NCBI GenBank assembly: GCA_030682415.1
Contig: JAUXOE010000186.1
Coordinates: forward strand, 1-51,556
Length of the DNA stretch: 51,556 bases
Direction of reading: 5' to 3'
DNA from: Parvibaculum sp.
Lineage (GTDB): Bacteria; Pseudomonadota; Alphaproteobacteria; Parvibaculales; Parvibaculaceae
The translations under genes were made by a program, and so were the position numbers. Of the stretch, positions 27,748 through 38,567 are shown piece after piece. The notes under the pieces were generated by a model. That model made no database searches. It was not told the DNA's origin and saw only the letters and a program-made list of their open reading frames with translations. Numbering within the stretch: the stretch's first letter is position 1; every line of letters starts with the position of its first letter.

Positions 27748-30700
27748 ATGAAACTTTCCGACGTTTCGGTCACACGGCCCGTCTTTGCCGCCGTCGTCAG
27801 CATGCTGCTGGTGGCTTTCGGTCTCGTCGCCTTCGACCGGCTTCCTTTGCGCGAATATCCCGATATCGACCCGCCGATCGTTTCGATTACCACCGATTAT
27901 CGCGGTGCGGCCGCGGCCGTGGTCGAGACGCGCATCACCGAGGTCATCGAGGAGCGCATCGCCGGCATCGAAGGCATTTCCTTCGTGCAATCCTCGAGCG
28001 AGGATGGACGCTCGCGTATCACCATCGAGTTCAATCCCGGCCGCGACATCGACGCCGCCGCCAACGATATTCGCGACCGCGTGTCGGGCATACTCGACGT
28101 CCTGCCGACAGAGGCCGATCCGCCGGACATTCAGAAGGCCGATTCCAGCGACGACGTCATCATGTGGCTCAACGTCGTCAGCGACCGGCTATCGATGCTG
28201 GAACTGACCGACTATGTGGAGCGCCATCTCGTCGACCGGTTCTCGACGCAGGACGGTGTGGCGCGGGTCAGGCTCAGCGGCGCGCGCAGTTATTCGATGC
28301 GCATCTGGCTCGACCGCACCGCGCTTGCGGCGCGCGCACTGACGGTGGGCGATGTCGAAGCGGCTCTGATCGCCGAGAATGTCGAACTGCCGGCCGGCAG
28401 CATCGAATCGGTGCAGCGGCAATTCACCGCGCGCGTCGAGCGTGGTTTTCGCAGCGAAGCGGATTTCCGCCAGCTCGTGCTCGGCCAGGGGAGCGACGGT
28501 TATCTGGTGCGGCTCGGCGATGTCGCCCGCGTCGAGCGCGCGGCCGCCGAAGAGCGGACATTCTTTCGTGGCAACCGCATTCCGATGGTCGGCATCGGCA
28601 TCATCAAACAGTCGCAGGCCAACACGCTGACGGTGGCACGCGCGGCCAAGGCCGAGGCCGAACGTCTGGCGCCCGGCCTGCCCGAGGGCATGGATATTCG
28701 CCGCAGCTACGACACCAGCGTCTTCATCGAAGGGGCGGTCAACGAAGTCTACAAAACGCTCGCGATCGCCATTGTCCTCGTCATCCTGACGATTTTCGTC
28801 TTTCTCGGCAGCGCGCGGGCGACGCTGGTGCCGGCCGTCACCGTGCCGGTGTCGCTGATCGCGCCCTTTCTGGTGCTGTTCGCGCTCGGCTTCTCGGTCA
28901 ACCTGCTGACATTGCTGGCGCTGGTGCTGGCCATCGGGCTCGTGGTCGACGACACCATCGTGGTGCTTGAGAACATTTACCGGCGTATGGAGGAGGGCGA
29001 GACGCCGCTCGTCGCCGCCTATCGCGGGGCGCGACAGGTCGGCTTCGCGGTCATCGCGACCACCGTGGTTCTGATCGCGGTCTTCGTGCCCCTCGCCTTT
29101 GTCGAAGGCGCCATCGGTCGCCTGTTCTCGGAATTCGCGATCACCATGGCCGCGGCGGTTGCCTTTTCGAGCCTTGTCGCGCTCAGCCTGTCGCCGATGC
29201 TGTGCTCGAAAGTCCTGCGCCCGACATCCAATCGCACCAGGTTCAACATCGCCGTCGACGAGGGCTTCGACAAGCTCAAGGCGCGCTACCGCGAGGTTCT
29301 GGGGCGCGCGCTTCTCAAGCCGTCGATCACGGCCGCGACCTTCGGCGGCCTGGTCGTCGCCGCACTTGGCCTTTTCATCATTATCCCGTCGGAATATGCA
29401 CCCCGCGAGGATCGCGGCATCTTCTTCGTCATCGTCAACGGGCCGGAAGGTGCGTCGTTCAATTATATCAACGAGTACATGACCGAGATCGAGGACCGGC
29501 TGATGCCGCTGGTCGAGAGCGGCGAGATCAACCGGCTGCTGGTGCGCGCGCCGCGCTCGTTCGGCAATCTGTCGAGCTTCAACACCGGCGTCGCCGTCAT
29601 CGTGCTCGCCGACTGGAGCGAGCGCCGCTCGGCCTGGGAGATCATGGCCGATGTACGCGCCCGCGTTGCCGACCTGCCGGGCGTCACCGCCTCGCCGATG
29701 ATGCGGCAGGGCTTCGGTCGCGGCGCGGTCAAGCCGGTGCAGTTCGTCATTGGCGGCGGCTCCTACGAGGAGCTCCGGGAATGGCGCGACATCCTGATCG
29801 CGGCGATTGAGGCGGACAATCCCGGCCTCGTCAATATCGACCACGACTTCAAGGAAACGAAGCCGCAGCTTCGCGTCGAGATCGACCGCAACAATGCCGG
29901 CGATCTCGGCGTGACGGTCGGCAATATCGGGCGGACGCTCGAGACCGTCTTCGGCTCGCGCCGGGTGACGACGTTTGCCGATGGCGGCGAAGAATACGAT
30001 GTCATTCTGGAAGGGGAGCGCTCCGCACAACGCACGCCGAGCGACATGAGCAATGTCTTCGTGCGCTCGGAGCGAACGGGCGAGCTGATACCGCTCGCCA
30101 ATCTCGTCACCGTCAACGAAGCGGCGGGGCCGGCGAGCCTCAATCGCTACAACCGGATGCGCGCCATCACCATCGATGCCAACCTTGCCGACGGCTACAC
30201 GCTGGGCGCCGCCCTTGACCATTTGCGCAACCTCGCGCGTACACATCTGCCCCCGAATGTCGCTATCGACTATCGCGGCCAGTCGCTTGATTTCATGCGG
30301 GCCGGCGGTGCGCTCGGTTTCATCTTTGTGCTCGGCCTCGTTGTCGTCTTTCTGGTGCTGGCGGCGCAGTTCGAGAGCTTCGTCCATCCCGTCGTCATCA
30401 TCCTGACGGTGCCACTGGCAATTACCGGCGGGCTATTCGGTATCTGGATTACCGGTGGCACGATCAATCTCTATACGCAGATCGGCCTGATCATGCTGGT
30501 CGGGCTTGCGGCCAAGAACGGCATCCTGATCGTCGAATTCGCCAACCAGTTGCGCGATGAGGGGCGCGAGTTCGGCGAAGCGCTGGTCGAGGCTTCGGCG
30601 ATCCGGCTGCGCCCGATCCTGATGACAGCGATCACGACGATCGCGGGCTCCGTGGCGCTGATCCTGTCCTTCGGCGCCGGCGCCGAGACGCGCACGGCCA

Positions 30701-30888
30701 TTGGTGTCGTCATTTTCTCCGGCGTCATCGCCACCACGATTTTTACACTCTTCGTGGTGCCGGTGGCCTATCAGGCGCTGGCGCGCCGGACCGGGTCGCC
30801 GGGCGATACGCAGCGTCGGCTCGAAGACGAGATCGAGCGAATCGATGGCGCGAGCTTGCGGCCGCGCCCCATGGAAGGCGCAGAGTAG
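27748..30888 (+). CDS. RND efflux pump permease, first system
   Basis: This 1046-residue inner-membrane pump of the hydrophobe/amphiphile exporter type uses proton import to expel substrates. The proton-relay residues are all there: paired Asp401-Asp402 in GLVVDDTIVVLENIYRRM and Lys923 in LAAKNGILIVEFANQLRDEG. The duplicated N-half start MKLSDVSVTRPVFAAVVSMLL, DRLPLREYPDIDPPIVSITTDYRGA, and the large periplasmic loops are typical. No TolC-like gene is nearby, so it probably uses a shared outer-membrane channel. Substrates cannot be predicted. It ends 6 nt before the CoA-hydrolase start, so read-through is likely. Confidence 0.94.
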   Translation: MKLSDVSVTRPVFAAVVSMLLVAFGLVAFDRLPLREYPDIDPPIVSITTDYRGAAAAVVETRITEVIEERIAGIEGISFVQSSSEDGRSRITIEFNPGRDIDAAANDIRDRVSGILDVLPTEADPPDIQKADSSDDVIMWLNVVSDRLSMLELTDYVERHLVDRFSTQDGVARVRLSGARSYSMRIWLDRTALAARALTVGDVEAALIAENVELPAGSIESVQRQFTARVERGFRSEADFRQLVLGQGSDGYLVRLGDVARVERAAAEERTFFRGNRIPMVGIGIIKQSQANTLTVARAAKAEAERLAPGLPEGMDIRRSYDTSVFIEGAVNEVYKTLAIAIVLVILTIFVFLGSARATLVPAVTVPVSLIAPFLVLFALGFSVNLLTLLALVLAIGLVVDDTIVVLENIYRRMEEGETPLVAAYRGARQVGFAVIATTVVLIAVFVPLAFVEGAIGRLFSEFAITMAAAVAFSSLVALSLSPMLCSKVLRPTSNRTRFNIAVDEGFDKLKARYREVLGRALLKPSITAATFGGLVVAALGLFIIIPSEYAPREDRGIFFVIVNGPEGASFNYINEYMTEIEDRLMPLVESGEINRLLVRAPRSFGNLSSFNTGVAVIVLADWSERRSAWEIMADVRARVADLPGVTASPMMRQGFGRGAVKPVQFVIGGGSYEELREWRDILIAAIEADNPGLVNIDHDFKETKPQLRVEIDRNNAGDLGVTVGNIGRTLETVFGSRRVTTFADGGEEYDVILEGERSAQRTPSDMSNVFVRSERTGELIPLANLVTVNEAAGPASLNRYNRMRAITIDANLADGYTLGAALDHLRNLARTHLPPNVAIDYRGQSLDFMRAGGALGFIFVLGLVVVFLVLAAQFESFVHPVVIILTVPLAITGGLFGIWITGGTINLYTQIGLIMLVGLAAKNGILIVEFANQLRDEGREFGEALVEASAIRLRPILMTAITTIAGSVALILSFGAGAETRTAIGVVIFSGVIATTIFTLFVVPVAYQALARRTGSPGDTQRRLEDEIERIDGASLRPRPMEGAE

Positions 30889-30894
30889 GTGCCG

Positions 30895-33489: not shown

Positions 33490-33584
33490 AACACGGCCAT
33501 ATTCCGCTGCGTCGCGCTGGTGTTGCGCGTTTACCGCAGTGCAAAAAAATACAGAAAAGAGCGCGAAAAACGCGCGTCTGGCTC

Positions 33585-33612
33585 TTGGAATTCAGTATAT
33601 CGGTCCTATATA
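33585..33612 (+). promoter_or_regulatory. Promoter of the padR-RND operon
   Basis: TTGGAA (33585-33590), 16 bp and TATATA (33607-33612) form a good sigma-70 promoter. The -10 box is the centre of the palindrome CCTATATAGG, so repressor binding there would block polymerase. Confidence 0.6.
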
Positions 33613-33637
33613 GGCTCGATATATCGGCCCGTTATAT
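33594..33637 (+). promoter_or_regulatory. Palindrome array, probable PadR operator
   Basis: Two perfect 10-bp palindromes, CCTATATAGG (33605-33614) and CGATATATCG (33617-33626), are flanked by similar TATAT cores at 33596-33600 and 33633-33637. Their centres are spaced about 12, 12 and 13 bp, roughly one helical turn, so bound dimers would lie on one face. The array spans the promoter -10 and precedes padR, which suggests autorepression. Confidence 0.6.
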
Positions 33638-33662
33638 GGGGCCGCGACATGGACACCCCCCG

Positions 33663-34223
33663 ATGCAAGTCACGACGCTCTGTCTCGGCGCGTTGGTTTT
33701 CGGCGAAGCCACAGGCTACGAGATCAACAAGATGTTCGAGGATGGCCCCTTCAGCCATTTCCTCGACGCCAGCTATGGCTCGATCTATCCGGCGCTGACG
33801 CGGCTGACGGATGAAGGGCTTGTCACCTGCAAGGCGGAGCAGCAGGAGCGCCGACCCGACAAGAAAATCTATGCCCTGACCGACAGAGGCCGGGAGAGCC
33901 TGCGCGATGCGCTGCATACGCCGCTGGCCGAAGACAAATTCAGGTCCGAATTCCTGTTCGCAGTGCTTTTCGCCCATCTGCTGCCGCGCTCGCGCGTGGT
34001 CGAGCTTGTCGATCAGCGTCTTGCGGCAATGAAGGCGAAAACCGAAGAGCTTGCGACGAAGGATCCGGGCGACACGCCGGGAACGGACTTCGCGCGCCTC
34101 TACGGTCACGCCGTCTATTCGGCATCCGTCTCCTTTCTCGAGAACAACCGGCACCTGATCGAAGACATCGCGGTGGACGACAAGCCGCAGGACAACCCCA
34201 AAGCAGTACATTCTCATGTTTGA
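33663..34223 (+). CDS. PadR-family transcriptional regulator
   Basis: This 186-residue regulator has the PadR winged-helix domain at the N-terminus: TLCLGALVFGEATGYEINKMFEDGPF, ASYGSIYPALTRLTDEGLVTCKAEQ and RRPDKKIYALTDRGRESL. The C-terminal part (about 95-170) is a helical dimerisation and ligand-sensing domain. PadR proteins usually repress a neighbouring transporter or stress gene until an inducer binds. The gene overlaps the adaptor start by 8 nt, so padR, adaptor and pump are one coupled unit. The start MQVTTLCLG is favoured by family comparison; an ATG at 33636 within the operator is possible. No clear ribosome site precedes it. Confidence 0.88.
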   Translation: MQVTTLCLGALVFGEATGYEINKMFEDGPFSHFLDASYGSIYPALTRLTDEGLVTCKAEQQERRPDKKIYALTDRGRESLRDALHTPLAEDKFRSEFLFAVLFAHLLPRSRVVELVDQRLAAMKAKTEELATKDPGDTPGTDFARLYGHAVYSASVSFLENNRHLIEDIAVDDKPQDNPKAVHSHV

Positions 34224-35349
34224 GCGTCAGCGGAATATTATCGAACAGACCGGAAGCAAGCTTCACCGCTCGCATTTGATTGCCATCGGCATCGGGGTGG
34301 CAATCGGCCTCTGGTTCGTCAGCGGCGTCTTCGGCGGTTCGAACGGCGACAACAACGAAATGACGGCAGCTGAGCGCGACGCAGCCAATGCAGTCGTTCC
34401 TCAGGTGCGCGTTGTCACTTCGACCGCGGTCGCCCGGCAGGGAATGGTGGCTGTCCGCGGACGCACGGCGGCGAAGCGTGCCGTCGAAGTGCGTGCCGAG
34501 ACGCAAGGGACAGTGTCGGAGCTGCCCGTCGAAAAAGGCGCCCCGGTCAAGGCCGGCGAGGTTCTGTGCGGCATCAATCTCGATGCCCGCGATGCGCAGC
34601 TTGCCGAAGCCAAGGCGTTGGCACGGCAGCGGCAACTCGAATATGACGCGTCGCGACAACTGGCCGAGAAGGGCTATCGCGCACCGACCGCGGCGGCGGC
34701 CTCGAGGGCCGCACACGATGCCGCGCAGGCGCGACTGAAGCAGATGGAGATCGCGGTCAGCCAGACACGGCTCGTCGCTCCGTTCGACGGCATCTTCGAC
34801 GACCGTCGCGTCGAGGTTGGCGACTATCTGCGTGTTGGCGATGTGTGCGGCCTCGTTGTGGAGCTCGATCCGCTGCTGGTCATCGGTCAGGTTTCCGAAG
34901 ACCGGGTCAGCGCGTTGCGGATCGGTCTGCCGGGCCGGGCCCGGCTGATCACAGGTGAAACCGCAGAGGGCATCGTCAGCTTTGTCGCCAAGACAGCCGA
35001 CCCGGCGACGCGCACATTCCGCGTCGAGCTTGAAGTTCCCAATCCGGAATTCACGATGCGCGCCGGTATCACGGCCGAAATCATCGTACCGGGCGACGCA
35101 ATCCAGGCGCATCGCATTCCCAGCTCGGTGATCGCGCTCGACGACAAGGGCGTGATCGGCGTCCGCACGGTGGATGAAGACAGCCGCGTCAGGTTCAACC
35201 CGGTGCAACTGGTCGACGATACGCCCGAAGGTCTCTGGGTTGCCGGTCTTCCGCATACGGTGACACTCATCACCGTCGGCCAGGATTATGTGATCGAGGG
35301 TCAAAAGGTCGAGGCAATGCCCACCGCACAACTGGGAGCCGGCCTGTGA
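34216..35349 (+). CDS. RND efflux periplasmic adaptor, second system
   Basis: This 377-residue membrane-fusion protein is held in the inner membrane by one helix (about 20-37, HLIAIGIGVAIGLWFVSGVF) instead of a cleaved signal. The lipoyl halves are KRAVEVRAETQGTVSELPVEKGAPVKAGEVLCGI and TRLVAPFDGIFDDRRVEVGDYL. The coiled coil lies between them (ALARQRQLEYDASRQLAEKG to ALKQMEIAVSQ-like QARLKQMEIA). The barrel follows with TAEGIVSFVAKTADPATRTFRVELE. Its start overlaps padR by 8 nt, and its stop overlaps the pump GTG by 4 nt. Confidence 0.92.
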   Translation: MFERQRNIIEQTGSKLHRSHLIAIGIGVAIGLWFVSGVFGGSNGDNNEMTAAERDAANAVVPQVRVVTSTAVARQGMVAVRGRTAAKRAVEVRAETQGTVSELPVEKGAPVKAGEVLCGINLDARDAQLAEAKALARQRQLEYDASRQLAEKGYRAPTAAAASRAAHDAAQARLKQMEIAVSQTRLVAPFDGIFDDRRVEVGDYLRVGDVCGLVVELDPLLVIGQVSEDRVSALRIGLPGRARLITGETAEGIVSFVAKTADPATRTFRVELEVPNPEFTMRAGITAEIIVPGDAIQAHRIPSSVIALDDKGVIGVRTVDEDSRVRFNPVQLVDDTPEGLWVAGLPHTVTLITVGQDYVIEGQKVEAMPTAQLGAGL

Positions 35350-38300
35350 ACGGCTTTATCGACGCCATCCAGGGACGTACCCGCACCGTCATGACGACCA
35401 TGGTGTTGATGGTCGTCGCCGGCATCATTGCCTATGTGACCATTCCGAAGGAAGCCGACCCCGATATCCCGATTCCGATTTTCTACGTTTCGATCACGCA
35501 TCAAGGCATCTCGCCGGAAGATGCCGAACGACTGCTGATCCGTCCGATGGAGACGGAGCTGCGCTCGCTCGAAGGGCTTGAAGATATCACGGCCACAGCC
35601 TCGCAGGGTCATGCCGGTATTGTGTTGCGTTTCGATGTCAGCTTCGACAAGGACAAGGCGCTGCTGGATGTGCGCGAGAAAGTCGATCTCGCCCGCTCCA
35701 AGCTTCCGGCCGACACCGACGAACCGACGGTGCGCGAATTCAATGCCGCGCTTTTTCCTGTTCTGATCGTGACGCTTTCGGGCGAAGTGCCGGAACGGAC
35801 GCTCTACGAGGCGGCGCGGCGGCTGAAGGACGAGATCGAAGCGGTTCCAACCGTGTTGCAGGCCGAGCTGATCGGTCACCGGGAGGAGTTGCTCGAGGTT
35901 GCGATCGATCCGGCCAAGCTCGAATCCTATGGCATCGCCCAGGCCGAACTCATCAACATCGTGACGATGAACAACCGGCTGGTCGCGGCGGGCAGCATCG
36001 ATACCGGCCAGGGCCGTTTTTCGGTCAAGGTGCCCGGTCTCTTCGAGACGCGCGAAGATGTTCTGACTTTGCCGGTCAAGGTTTCCGGCGACGGGATCGT
36101 GACGCTTTCGGACGTCGCCGAAGTTCGCCGGACCTTCAAGGACCCGGACGGCTATGCGCGCTTCAACGGCCATCCGGCAATCGCCATCGAAATCACCAAG
36201 CGGATCGGCACCAACATCGTCGACAACAACACGCATGTCCGCGCCGTCGTCGATGAATTCACGACCGACTGGCCTGAAGCCATCCATGTCGATTTCACGC
36301 TCGACGCGTCGAGCTGGATCCATCGTTCCCTCGGTTCGCTGCAATCCTCGATCACGACGGCCATCGTGCTGGTGATGATTGTCGTCGTCGCCGCGCTTGG
36401 CTTGCGTTCGGCGCTGCTCGTCGGCGTCGCCATTCCGACCTCCTTCATGATCGGCTTCCTGTTCCTTTCGGTGACGGGCTACACGGTCAACATGATGGTC
36501 ATGTTCGGCATGCTGCTCTCTGTCGGCATGCTGGTCGACGGCGCCATTGTGCTGGTCGAATATGCCGACCGCAAAATGTCGGAGGGGCTCGACCGCCGTG
36601 CGGCCTACGGACTTGCCGCCAAGCGCATGTTCTGGCCGATCGCCGCGTCCACCGCGACGACGCTCGCCGCCTTCCTGCCGATGCTGCTGTGGCCGGGCGT
36701 CAGCGGCAAGTTCATGAGCTATCTGCCGATCACGCTGATCGTCGTGCTTTCGGCCTCGTTCCTTACCGCCCTTGTCTTTCTTCCCGTGCTCGGCTCGCTG
36801 GTCGGCAAGGCCGAAAGCGCCGACAGCGAGGTGTTGAGACTTCTCGCCGGCGCGGAGACGGGCGACATCCGCTCGCTTCCCGGCTTCACCGGCGCCTATG
36901 TCCGGCTGCTCGACCGGCTGATCTACTATCCGGGGCGGATTCTCGCCGGAACCGCCGTCATTCTCGTCGGCACGATCGCGCTCTTCTCCAACTTCAACAA
37001 TGGCGTCGAGTTCTTCGTCGACACCGAGCCGGAACAGGCGATCGTTCTGGTGAGCGCGCGCGGCAATCTGTCGGCGCAGGATACGTTGACGCTGGCGCGC
37101 GACGTCGAAGACATTGTGCTTTCGACCGATGGCGTCAGGACCGTTTTCACGCGCACCGGACCCGGCCTCGGCTCGGGCCCCGTCGGCCGCGGCGACGTAC
37201 CGAAGGATCTCATCGCCCAGCTGATGATCGAATTGAAGCCCTATGAAGAACGGGCCAAGGGTGCTGTCGTTCTCGATGAAATTCGCCAGAGGACCGACAA
37301 GGTCCCCGGTATCAAGGTTGAACTGCGCAAGGTCGAGGACGGTCCACCGACCGGCAAGGACATTCAGATCGAGCTGACGTCCAACGATTATGGCCGGCTG
37401 CTGCAGGCCGCCGCCACCGTTCGCGATCATCTCGACCGGAATGTCGACGGGCTGATCGACGTCGAGGACGGAAGGCCGCTGCCGGGGATCGAATGGGTGA
37501 TGACGGTCGACCGGGAACTGGCCGGACGTTTCGGCGCCGACGTCACGTCAGTCGGCGCGACCATCCAGCTCGTCACCAATGGCATTCTGATCGGCAAGTA
37601 CCGGCCCGACGATGCGCAGGACGAGGTCGACATCCGGGCGCGCTTCCCCGGCGACTATCGCGTGCTCGACCAGCTCGACCAGTTGCGCGTTCAGACCCCG
37701 CATGGCCTCGTGCCGATTTCGAATTTCGTCACGCGAACGGCGCAACCGCAGGTTGGCTCGATCGAGCGCATCGACGGCTTTCGTCGGATCATGGTCAAGG
37801 CCAATACCGCTTTCGACCGCGAGACGCAGGCAAAGATCAATGTCGACGAGAAGACGCGCGAGATACAGGAATGGATCGAGACACAGGATTTCGGCGCCGG
37901 CGTTCGCGTGAAGTTCCGCGGTGCCAATGAAGAGCAGGAGAAGGCGTCGAACTTCCTCGGCGGGGCGCTTGTCGGCGCCCTGTTCCTGATGTTCGTGATT
38001 CTGCTGACGCAGTTCAACAGCTTCTACCATTCAGTGCTGACGCTCTCGACCGTGGTGCTCTCGACCGTCGGCGTGCTGATCGGGATGATGGTCACCGGCC
38101 AGCCCTTCTCCGTCATCATGACGGGCACAGGCATCGTTGCGCTGGCCGGTATCGTGGTGAACAACTCGATCGTGCTGATTGATACCTATCAGCGCCTGCT
38201 TGGCGAAGGCATGGACGTCGTCGAGGCGGTGTTGCGCACGGCGGGGCAGCGTCTCAGGCCGATCATGCTGACCACGATCACCACCATGTTCGGCCTCTTG

Positions 38301-38567
38301 CCGATGGCGTTGCAGATCAATTTCAATTTCGCGACGCGCGAGATCATATTCGGCGGACCGGTCTCGGTGTGGTGGGTGCAGTTGTCGACCGCGATCATTT
38401 TCGGTCTCGGTTTCTCGACGCTGCTGACGCTGGTGCTGGTGCCGGTGCTGCTGGCCGCGCCGTCGGTCGCACGCGAAAACCGGCTGCGCGGCGAGCGGCC
38501 GACGCTGCCGCGGATGCTGCGCTGGGGCAAACGCGCCGCGGGTCCGGCCGGGCGCGCGGCCGAATAG
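35346..38567 (+). CDS. RND efflux pump permease, second system with variant proton-relay residues
   Basis: This 1073-residue inner-membrane RND pump starts at a GTG inside the adaptor stop. TM4 reads LLSVGMLVDGAIVLVEYADRK, so Asp398 is kept but the second Asp of the AcrB pair is Gly399. TM10 reads LAGIVVNNSIVLIDTYQRLL, with Asn939 where AcrB has Lys940. This combination occurs in a divergent RND subfamily, so coupling chemistry differs from AcrB but the protein is not broken. It is led by an unusual FIDAIQGRTRTVMTTMVLMVV helix and the loop IPIPIFYVSITHQGISPEDAERLL. No outer-membrane partner is adjacent. Regulation is presumably by the PadR protein at the start of the operon. Confidence 0.93.
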   Translation: MNGFIDAIQGRTRTVMTTMVLMVVAGIIAYVTIPKEADPDIPIPIFYVSITHQGISPEDAERLLIRPMETELRSLEGLEDITATASQGHAGIVLRFDVSFDKDKALLDVREKVDLARSKLPADTDEPTVREFNAALFPVLIVTLSGEVPERTLYEAARRLKDEIEAVPTVLQAELIGHREELLEVAIDPAKLESYGIAQAELINIVTMNNRLVAAGSIDTGQGRFSVKVPGLFETREDVLTLPVKVSGDGIVTLSDVAEVRRTFKDPDGYARFNGHPAIAIEITKRIGTNIVDNNTHVRAVVDEFTTDWPEAIHVDFTLDASSWIHRSLGSLQSSITTAIVLVMIVVVAALGLRSALLVGVAIPTSFMIGFLFLSVTGYTVNMMVMFGMLLSVGMLVDGAIVLVEYADRKMSEGLDRRAAYGLAAKRMFWPIAASTATTLAAFLPMLLWPGVSGKFMSYLPITLIVVLSASFLTALVFLPVLGSLVGKAESADSEVLRLLAGAETGDIRSLPGFTGAYVRLLDRLIYYPGRILAGTAVILVGTIALFSNFNNGVEFFVDTEPEQAIVLVSARGNLSAQDTLTLARDVEDIVLSTDGVRTVFTRTGPGLGSGPVGRGDVPKDLIAQLMIELKPYEERAKGAVVLDEIRQRTDKVPGIKVELRKVEDGPPTGKDIQIELTSNDYGRLLQAAATVRDHLDRNVDGLIDVEDGRPLPGIEWVMTVDRELAGRFGADVTSVGATIQLVTNGILIGKYRPDDAQDEVDIRARFPGDYRVLDQLDQLRVQTPHGLVPISNFVTRTAQPQVGSIERIDGFRRIMVKANTAFDRETQAKINVDEKTREIQEWIETQDFGAGVRVKFRGANEEQEKASNFLGGALVGALFLMFVILLTQFNSFYHSVLTLSTVVLSTVGVLIGMMVTGQPFSVIMTGTGIVALAGIVVNNSIVLIDTYQRLLGEGMDVVEAVLRTAGQRLRPIMLTTITTMFGLLPMALQINFNFATREIIFGGPVSVWWVQLSTAIIFGLGFSTLLTLVLVPVLLAAPSVARENRLRGERPTLPRMLRWGKRAAGPAGRAAE

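Follow-up and report, generated by a model that had tools for sequence, protein, structure and literature searches.

The usual operator of PadR-family regulators is a single ATGT-N8-ACAT site (PMC4517056), and residues Y20 and Y42 of Bacillus subtilis PadR (BsPadR) are signature DNA-contacting tyrosines of the family (PMC6457526). AphA of Vibrio cholerae, a PadR-family protein with the operator ATGCAA-N4-TTGCAT, gives a 25-bp footprint on a single site and binds cooperatively to paired sites of tfoX and cqsS, where the footprint is 37 bp (PMC6855506). At its own promoter, LmrR of Lactococcus lactis binds as several dimers (PMC4534193), and one site takes up two dimers (PMC5428041).

In the window (the whole 51,556-nucleotide stretch of Parvibaculum sp. 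DNA that was analyzed), a padR gene is followed by genes for the adaptor and permease of an RND efflux pump (Table 1). The array upstream of padR departed from the ATGT-N8-ACAT operator in sequence (TATATCG-N3-CGATATA) but resembled it in half-site spacing (11 versus 12 bp). It contained three units where at least two adjacent inverted repeats at a promoter define a multi-dimer operator. It is a conserved regulatory element of the promoter that precedes padR, adaptor, and RND genes, and most likely the PadR operator. A literature search for the motif sequence yielded nothing relevant and no description of this operator.

The padR-adaptor-RND locus and its promoter

The winged-helix domain PF03551 of the padR product scored 60.6 bits against a curated cut-off of 27, and this was the only PadR above the Pfam cut-off in the genome. 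Searches with phmmer returned 6jyi, 3l9f, 5x11, and AphA, its relatives by sequence being BC1756, BsPadR, and AphA. Foldseek with the protein model found the BsPadR-DNA complex 5x11, BC1756, and AphA over approximately 170-180 columns, with a domain arrangement in the model that differed from these matches (rmsd near 18 Å). Its predicted C-terminal helices (90-102, 109-131, and 139-167; mean pLDDT of the model 88.6) and its length point to the PadR-1 class, whose members have about 200 amino acids and a C-terminal helical dimerisation domain. Y19 and Y42, which match the DNA-contacting tyrosines of BsPadR, were invariant in 16 orthologues. Among 76 fetched class-wide orthologues, an adaptor gene lay downstream in 72 and an RND gene in 71. 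The three overlapping genes, which are probably co-transcribed, stand downstream of the putative operator as in an autoregulated efflux operon. Further upstream on the same strand, the window carried another RND permease gene, of the AcrB type and unrelated to the first (27748-30888), an acetyl-CoA hydrolase/transferase-like gene that starts at 30889, the base after the AcrB-type stop codon, and a glutathione S-transferase gene.

Table 1. Features of the padR promoter and operon in the window, with the basis of each assignment.
Feature	Position	Strand	Basis
-35-like hexamer TTGGAA	33585..33590	+	16 bp before TATATA
Operator unit I, TATATC-GGTCC-TATATA	33596..33612		exact TATAT-N7-ATATA
Operator unit II, TATATA-GGCTC-GATATA	33607..33623		exact TATAT-N7-ATATA
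Putative -10 box TATATA, half-site common to units I and II	33607..33612	+	inferred from spacing
Operator unit III, TATATC-GGCCC-GTTATA	33620..33636		one mismatch; 20.4 bits, family matrix
GGA, Shine-Dalgarno remnant	33651..33653	+	alignment; relatives keep AAGGA/AGGGA
padR, PadR-1-type repressor, 186 aa	33663..34223	+	PF03551 E 1.5e-16; PDB relatives; start from orthologues
RND periplasmic adaptor, 8-nt overlap with padR	34216..35349	+	TIGR01730 E 8.1e-42, above cut-off
RND permease, 4-nt overlap with adaptor gene	35346..38567	+	PF00873 E 1e-165

A sequence-only reading of this locus had described two perfect palindromes and two flanking TATAT cores with centres about 12 bp apart, and had placed the -10 box in one of the palindromes. 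These elements were all recovered. The palindromes CCTATATAGG (33605-33614) and CGATATATCG (33617-33626) each contain a TATAT core, starting at 33607 and 33620, respectively, and the outer cores occupy 33596-33600 and 33633-33637. Neighbouring core centres were 11.5, 12, and 13.5 bp apart, so that the four cores covered 37 bp, or approximately 3.5 helical turns, and the TATATA inside the palindrome lies at a -10 spacing from TTGGAA. A repeat finder, however, grouped three 17-bp copies, starting at 33596, 33607, and 33620. Judged from the sequence, the true repeat unit is not a 10-bp palindrome but a 17-bp inverted repeat, TATATCG-N3-CGATATA, whose half-sites are about 11 bp (one helical turn) apart. 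The window contained three overlapping units, two of which were exact TATAT-N7-ATATA matches while the third had one mismatch. The cores look palindromic because neighbouring units overlap and share half-sites.

The TTGG of the -35-like hexamer was conserved almost throughout the 15 Parvibaculum upstream regions, and an equivalent -35/-10 pair occurred across the genus. In Tepidicaulis (L016), the unit was placed identically relative to its -35. A promoter scan of the window with a stricter consensus reported no promoter, TTGGAA/TATATA being a loose match. Across the orthologous regions that contain a unit, a TTGNNN hexamer 16-18 bp from a -10 box inside the unit was found in 49 of 96; shuffling of the upstream flank gave 14.7 (sd 2.3). 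As a separate observation, a non-coding element, GTGTTRC...YGCCGCANTGCAAAAAA (window 33520-33549), was conserved in each of the 15 Parvibaculum regions, where it precedes the -35 by approximately 36 bp; its sequence CCGCANTGCANAAAA had a single exact occurrence in the genome, and the element is perhaps an activator site.

An alternative padR start at ATG 33636 had also been suggested. This codon is in frame with padR in the window, but the matching ATG was out of frame in the close relative L002 and other orthologues had no corresponding ATG. Translation of padR is therefore assigned to the ATG at 33663, and a leaderless start at 33636 was ruled out. The window indeed has no clear ribosome-binding site before padR, from which an unusual mode of translation had been proposed. 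This proposal lost its force, since L003 and L004 have AAGGA 8 nt before the padR start and other relatives have AGGGA at approximately 10 nt, whereas a deletion of about 19 nt in the padR leader (33636-33662), common to the window and L002, left only GGA. The missing site is thus a derived condition and not a special mechanism. An RNA hairpin in the padR leader was likewise rejected (z-score -0.21).

Rarity, conservation, and spacing of the 17-bp unit

By themselves, the 10-bp palindromes are weak evidence in a TA-rich stretch, as 182 (3.6%) of the sequences obtained by dinucleotide-shuffling 33585-33662 5,000 times had at least two. The 17-bp register, in contrast, is strong evidence. Dinucleotide shuffling of the 173-bp intergenic region gave two exact TATAT-N7-ATATA sites in none of 20,000 trials and one exact site in 12, and the 2.97-Mb genome as a whole contains only three such sites, of which the array holds two. 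A differently spaced pattern (N8) had zero matches. No wider regulon emerged from the genome, in which sites with up to two mismatches were no commoner than those of a control pattern (24 versus 22). The absence of extra sites above the control level, together with the presence of a sole PadR above cut-off, makes this PadR look like a local autorepressor. The exact pattern TATATC-N5-GATATA was found in 33 of 91 genomes with a padR orthologue and in 35 of 294 without one, while its reversed control occurred in 6 and 30 of these genomes, respectively. Operator sites elsewhere in other genomes had no padR homologue close by. In two genomes of one genus (L154:2167 and L157:2052), the 17-bp operator immediately preceded a metallo-hydrolase-like gene, and padR was absent from the vicinity; this gene is a possible second operator target in that lineage.

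Alignment of regions upstream of orthologous padR genes, which the sequence-only reading had named as a check on the array, bore it out. A matrix over 98 such regions, including 76 class-wide regions from 42 families of Alphaproteobacteria, reproduced TATATCG-N3-CGATATA. A unit was present in 96 of the 98 regions, against 87 of 4,900 shuffled regions, although single-site scores are partly circular, the matrix having been built from the top site in each of these regions; this circularity weighs less on the second-site and genome-wide tests. No unit was scored for two orthologues. At least two units occurred in 64 of the 98 regions, some of which are duplicates or close relatives (the pairs L005/L058 and L017/L059 each come from one genome). 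About one third of the orthologues had a single unit, and arrays are thus not essential to the regulator. In the class-wide regions, 41 of the 42 families had a unit and 29 had at least two. Four more distant PadR homologues without pump genes had no units with zero or one mismatch. The TATAT array is therefore real, non-random, and conserved.

In the 15 Parvibaculum upstream regions, TATATAG was invariant and CGATATATCG all but invariant. Unit I was found in the closest relatives L002-L004 and was missing from other Parvibaculum, which had a unit equivalent to unit III at +13. On this alignment, units II and III are ancestral in Parvibaculum, and unit I is specific to the branch of the window. 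Thalassospira (L019), by comparison, carried two clean copies, TATATCAGTTCGATATA and TATATCGAGCTGATATA, 30 bp apart.

The spacing of units was analyzed by fixing the best unit, shuffling its flanks, and counting the offsets of second units. An offset of 15 bp was seen 31 times (0.18 expected; 20 families), 13 bp 18 times (1.35 expected; six families), and 30 bp 10 times (0.02 expected), while no second unit in the orthologous regions was offset by 16-19 bp. Overall, offsets of 11, 13, 15, 20-25, and 30 bp were observed. Since these are not whole helical turns and vary by lineage, helical phasing is not a conserved feature, and the earlier description of the array as helically phased did not hold; strict phasing was ruled out by the same variation. 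From the aligned sites, the conserved feature is the overlap of units, neighbouring ones having two bases in common at an offset of 15 bp and four at 13 bp. The strict preference for 15 and 13 over 16-19 bp points to geometric limits on how bound dimers sit relative to one another.

Occupancy of the putative operator by PadR

Taken together, the sequence comparisons make it very probable that 33596-33636 is the operator of the adjacent, autorepressing PadR-1-type regulator, covering the core promoter of the padR-adaptor-RND operon, with probable cooperative occupancy. One winged-helix PadR dimer would fit one 17-bp unit. The common half-sites would also serve as the -10 box and lie on either side of the predicted transcription start near 33619, and bound PadR would exclude RNA polymerase and so repress its own operon. 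Because -10 boxes lie inside units, occlusion of the polymerase would be the natural mode of repression. Neighbouring overlapping units probably let two dimers bind cooperatively, which would give tight repression and a steep response. As in other members of the family, a small molecule, probably a pump substrate, would release PadR and induce the pump.

The number of dimers that bind the array at one time is less clear. Cooperative occupancy of overlapping units is plausible, given that AphA and LmrR bind with more than one dimer. A more specific form, held at somewhat less than even chance, is that two dimers sit on 17-bp sites that overlap at an offset of exactly 13 or 15 bp and read the common central half-site from opposite sides. 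We hold with the same reserve the joint, class-wide reading of such a fused operator in this PadR lineage, in which the -10 box lies inside the common half-site.

The main rival is a single dimer that chooses between registers, and its probability falls only a little lower. Overlapping units would then serve as interchangeable registers, with rebinding increasing the affinity locally. At offsets of 11-13 bp, units have 4-6 bases in common, and even the four shared at 13 bp may sterically hinder simultaneous binding; moreover, three-arm arrays are too short for two non-overlapping dimers, and the one-unit orthologues evidently work with a single site. The preference for 15 and 13 over 16-19 bp speaks against a lone dimer, and the paired AphA footprint, although only about 12 bp longer than that of a single site, reflects cooperative binding (PMC6855506). 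The difference between the two AphA footprints implies that the paired sites are shifted by about 12 bp, which approaches the 11-15 bp of the present arrays.

Inverted repeats rich in TA are suitable targets for a wide range of regulators. Another DNA-binding protein, such as a global regulator or nucleoid protein, might accordingly use the array while PadR acts elsewhere, the binding of PadR to the array being predicted. This is improbable, as the motif accompanies the padR orthologue across 41 families, is virtually restricted to this promoter within the genome, and is lacking at the distant, pump-less homologues. Still less probable is that a dimer binds every palindromic core as a full site, with up to four dimers on successive turns. 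Although the cores are spaced at about 12 bp and two are perfect 10-bp palindromes, isolated 17-bp units with two half-sites 11 bp apart are conserved, isolated cores are not, and core spacing is unphased across orthologues. Furthermore, an LmrR dimer covers approximately 22 bp, which makes four dimers at 12-bp steps sterically unlikely (PMC5428041). Of the earlier proposal of cooperative PadR dimers, multi-site binding thus stays plausible, whereas the placement of single dimers on 12-bp palindromes at adjacent turns finds no support. A TA-rich promoter with chance palindromes, for which only their recurrence in array shuffles speaks, can be dismissed on the 17-bp register statistics and the class-wide conservation.

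Comparison with described PadR-family regulators

A defined operator sequence and architecture are now available for a PadR-RND system that occurs in 91 of 385 sampled alphaproteobacterial genomes, or approximately one quarter. The arrangement is kept across many families of Alphaproteobacteria and shows how the pump probably stays off until needed. Its interest lies in the operator sequence and in the fixed 13/15-bp overlap. If two dimers do share a half-site, the fused operator would represent a cooperative geometry of its own among winged-helix repressors, and how sharply the pump is induced would depend on half-site sharing. Natural variants with one, two, or three units, at offsets of 11, 13, 15, and 30 bp, allow a direct test of cooperative repression by PadR proteins.

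AphA resembles the regulator described here as a PadR-family dimer (predicted in our case) that uses adjacent inverted-repeat operators of similar size, and it represses by overlap with promoter elements or activator sites, promoter overlap being seen here too. However, AphA is a global quorum-sensing regulator with weakly matching paired sites at tfoX; the present PadR would be a local autorepressor of an efflux operon with units that are all strong. Several cooperating repeat elements also occur at the own and divergent promoters of the PadR-like Escherichia coli YqjI, which is nickel-responsive and controls a ferric reductase. LmrR, which controls lmrCD, is an autorepressing multidrug-pump repressor of the PadR family, as proposed here (PMC4534193, PMC5428041), but belongs to the PadR-2 size class, controls an ABC pump, recognizes ATGT-N8/10-ACAT, and has separate regulator and pump promoters. 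By sequence and fold, the closest DNA-bound structure is that of B. subtilis PadR (5x11), which has the PadR-1 architecture and whose two tyrosines are both kept in the present protein; the two differ in that identity is only about 30% and BsPadR controls a phenolic acid decarboxylase.
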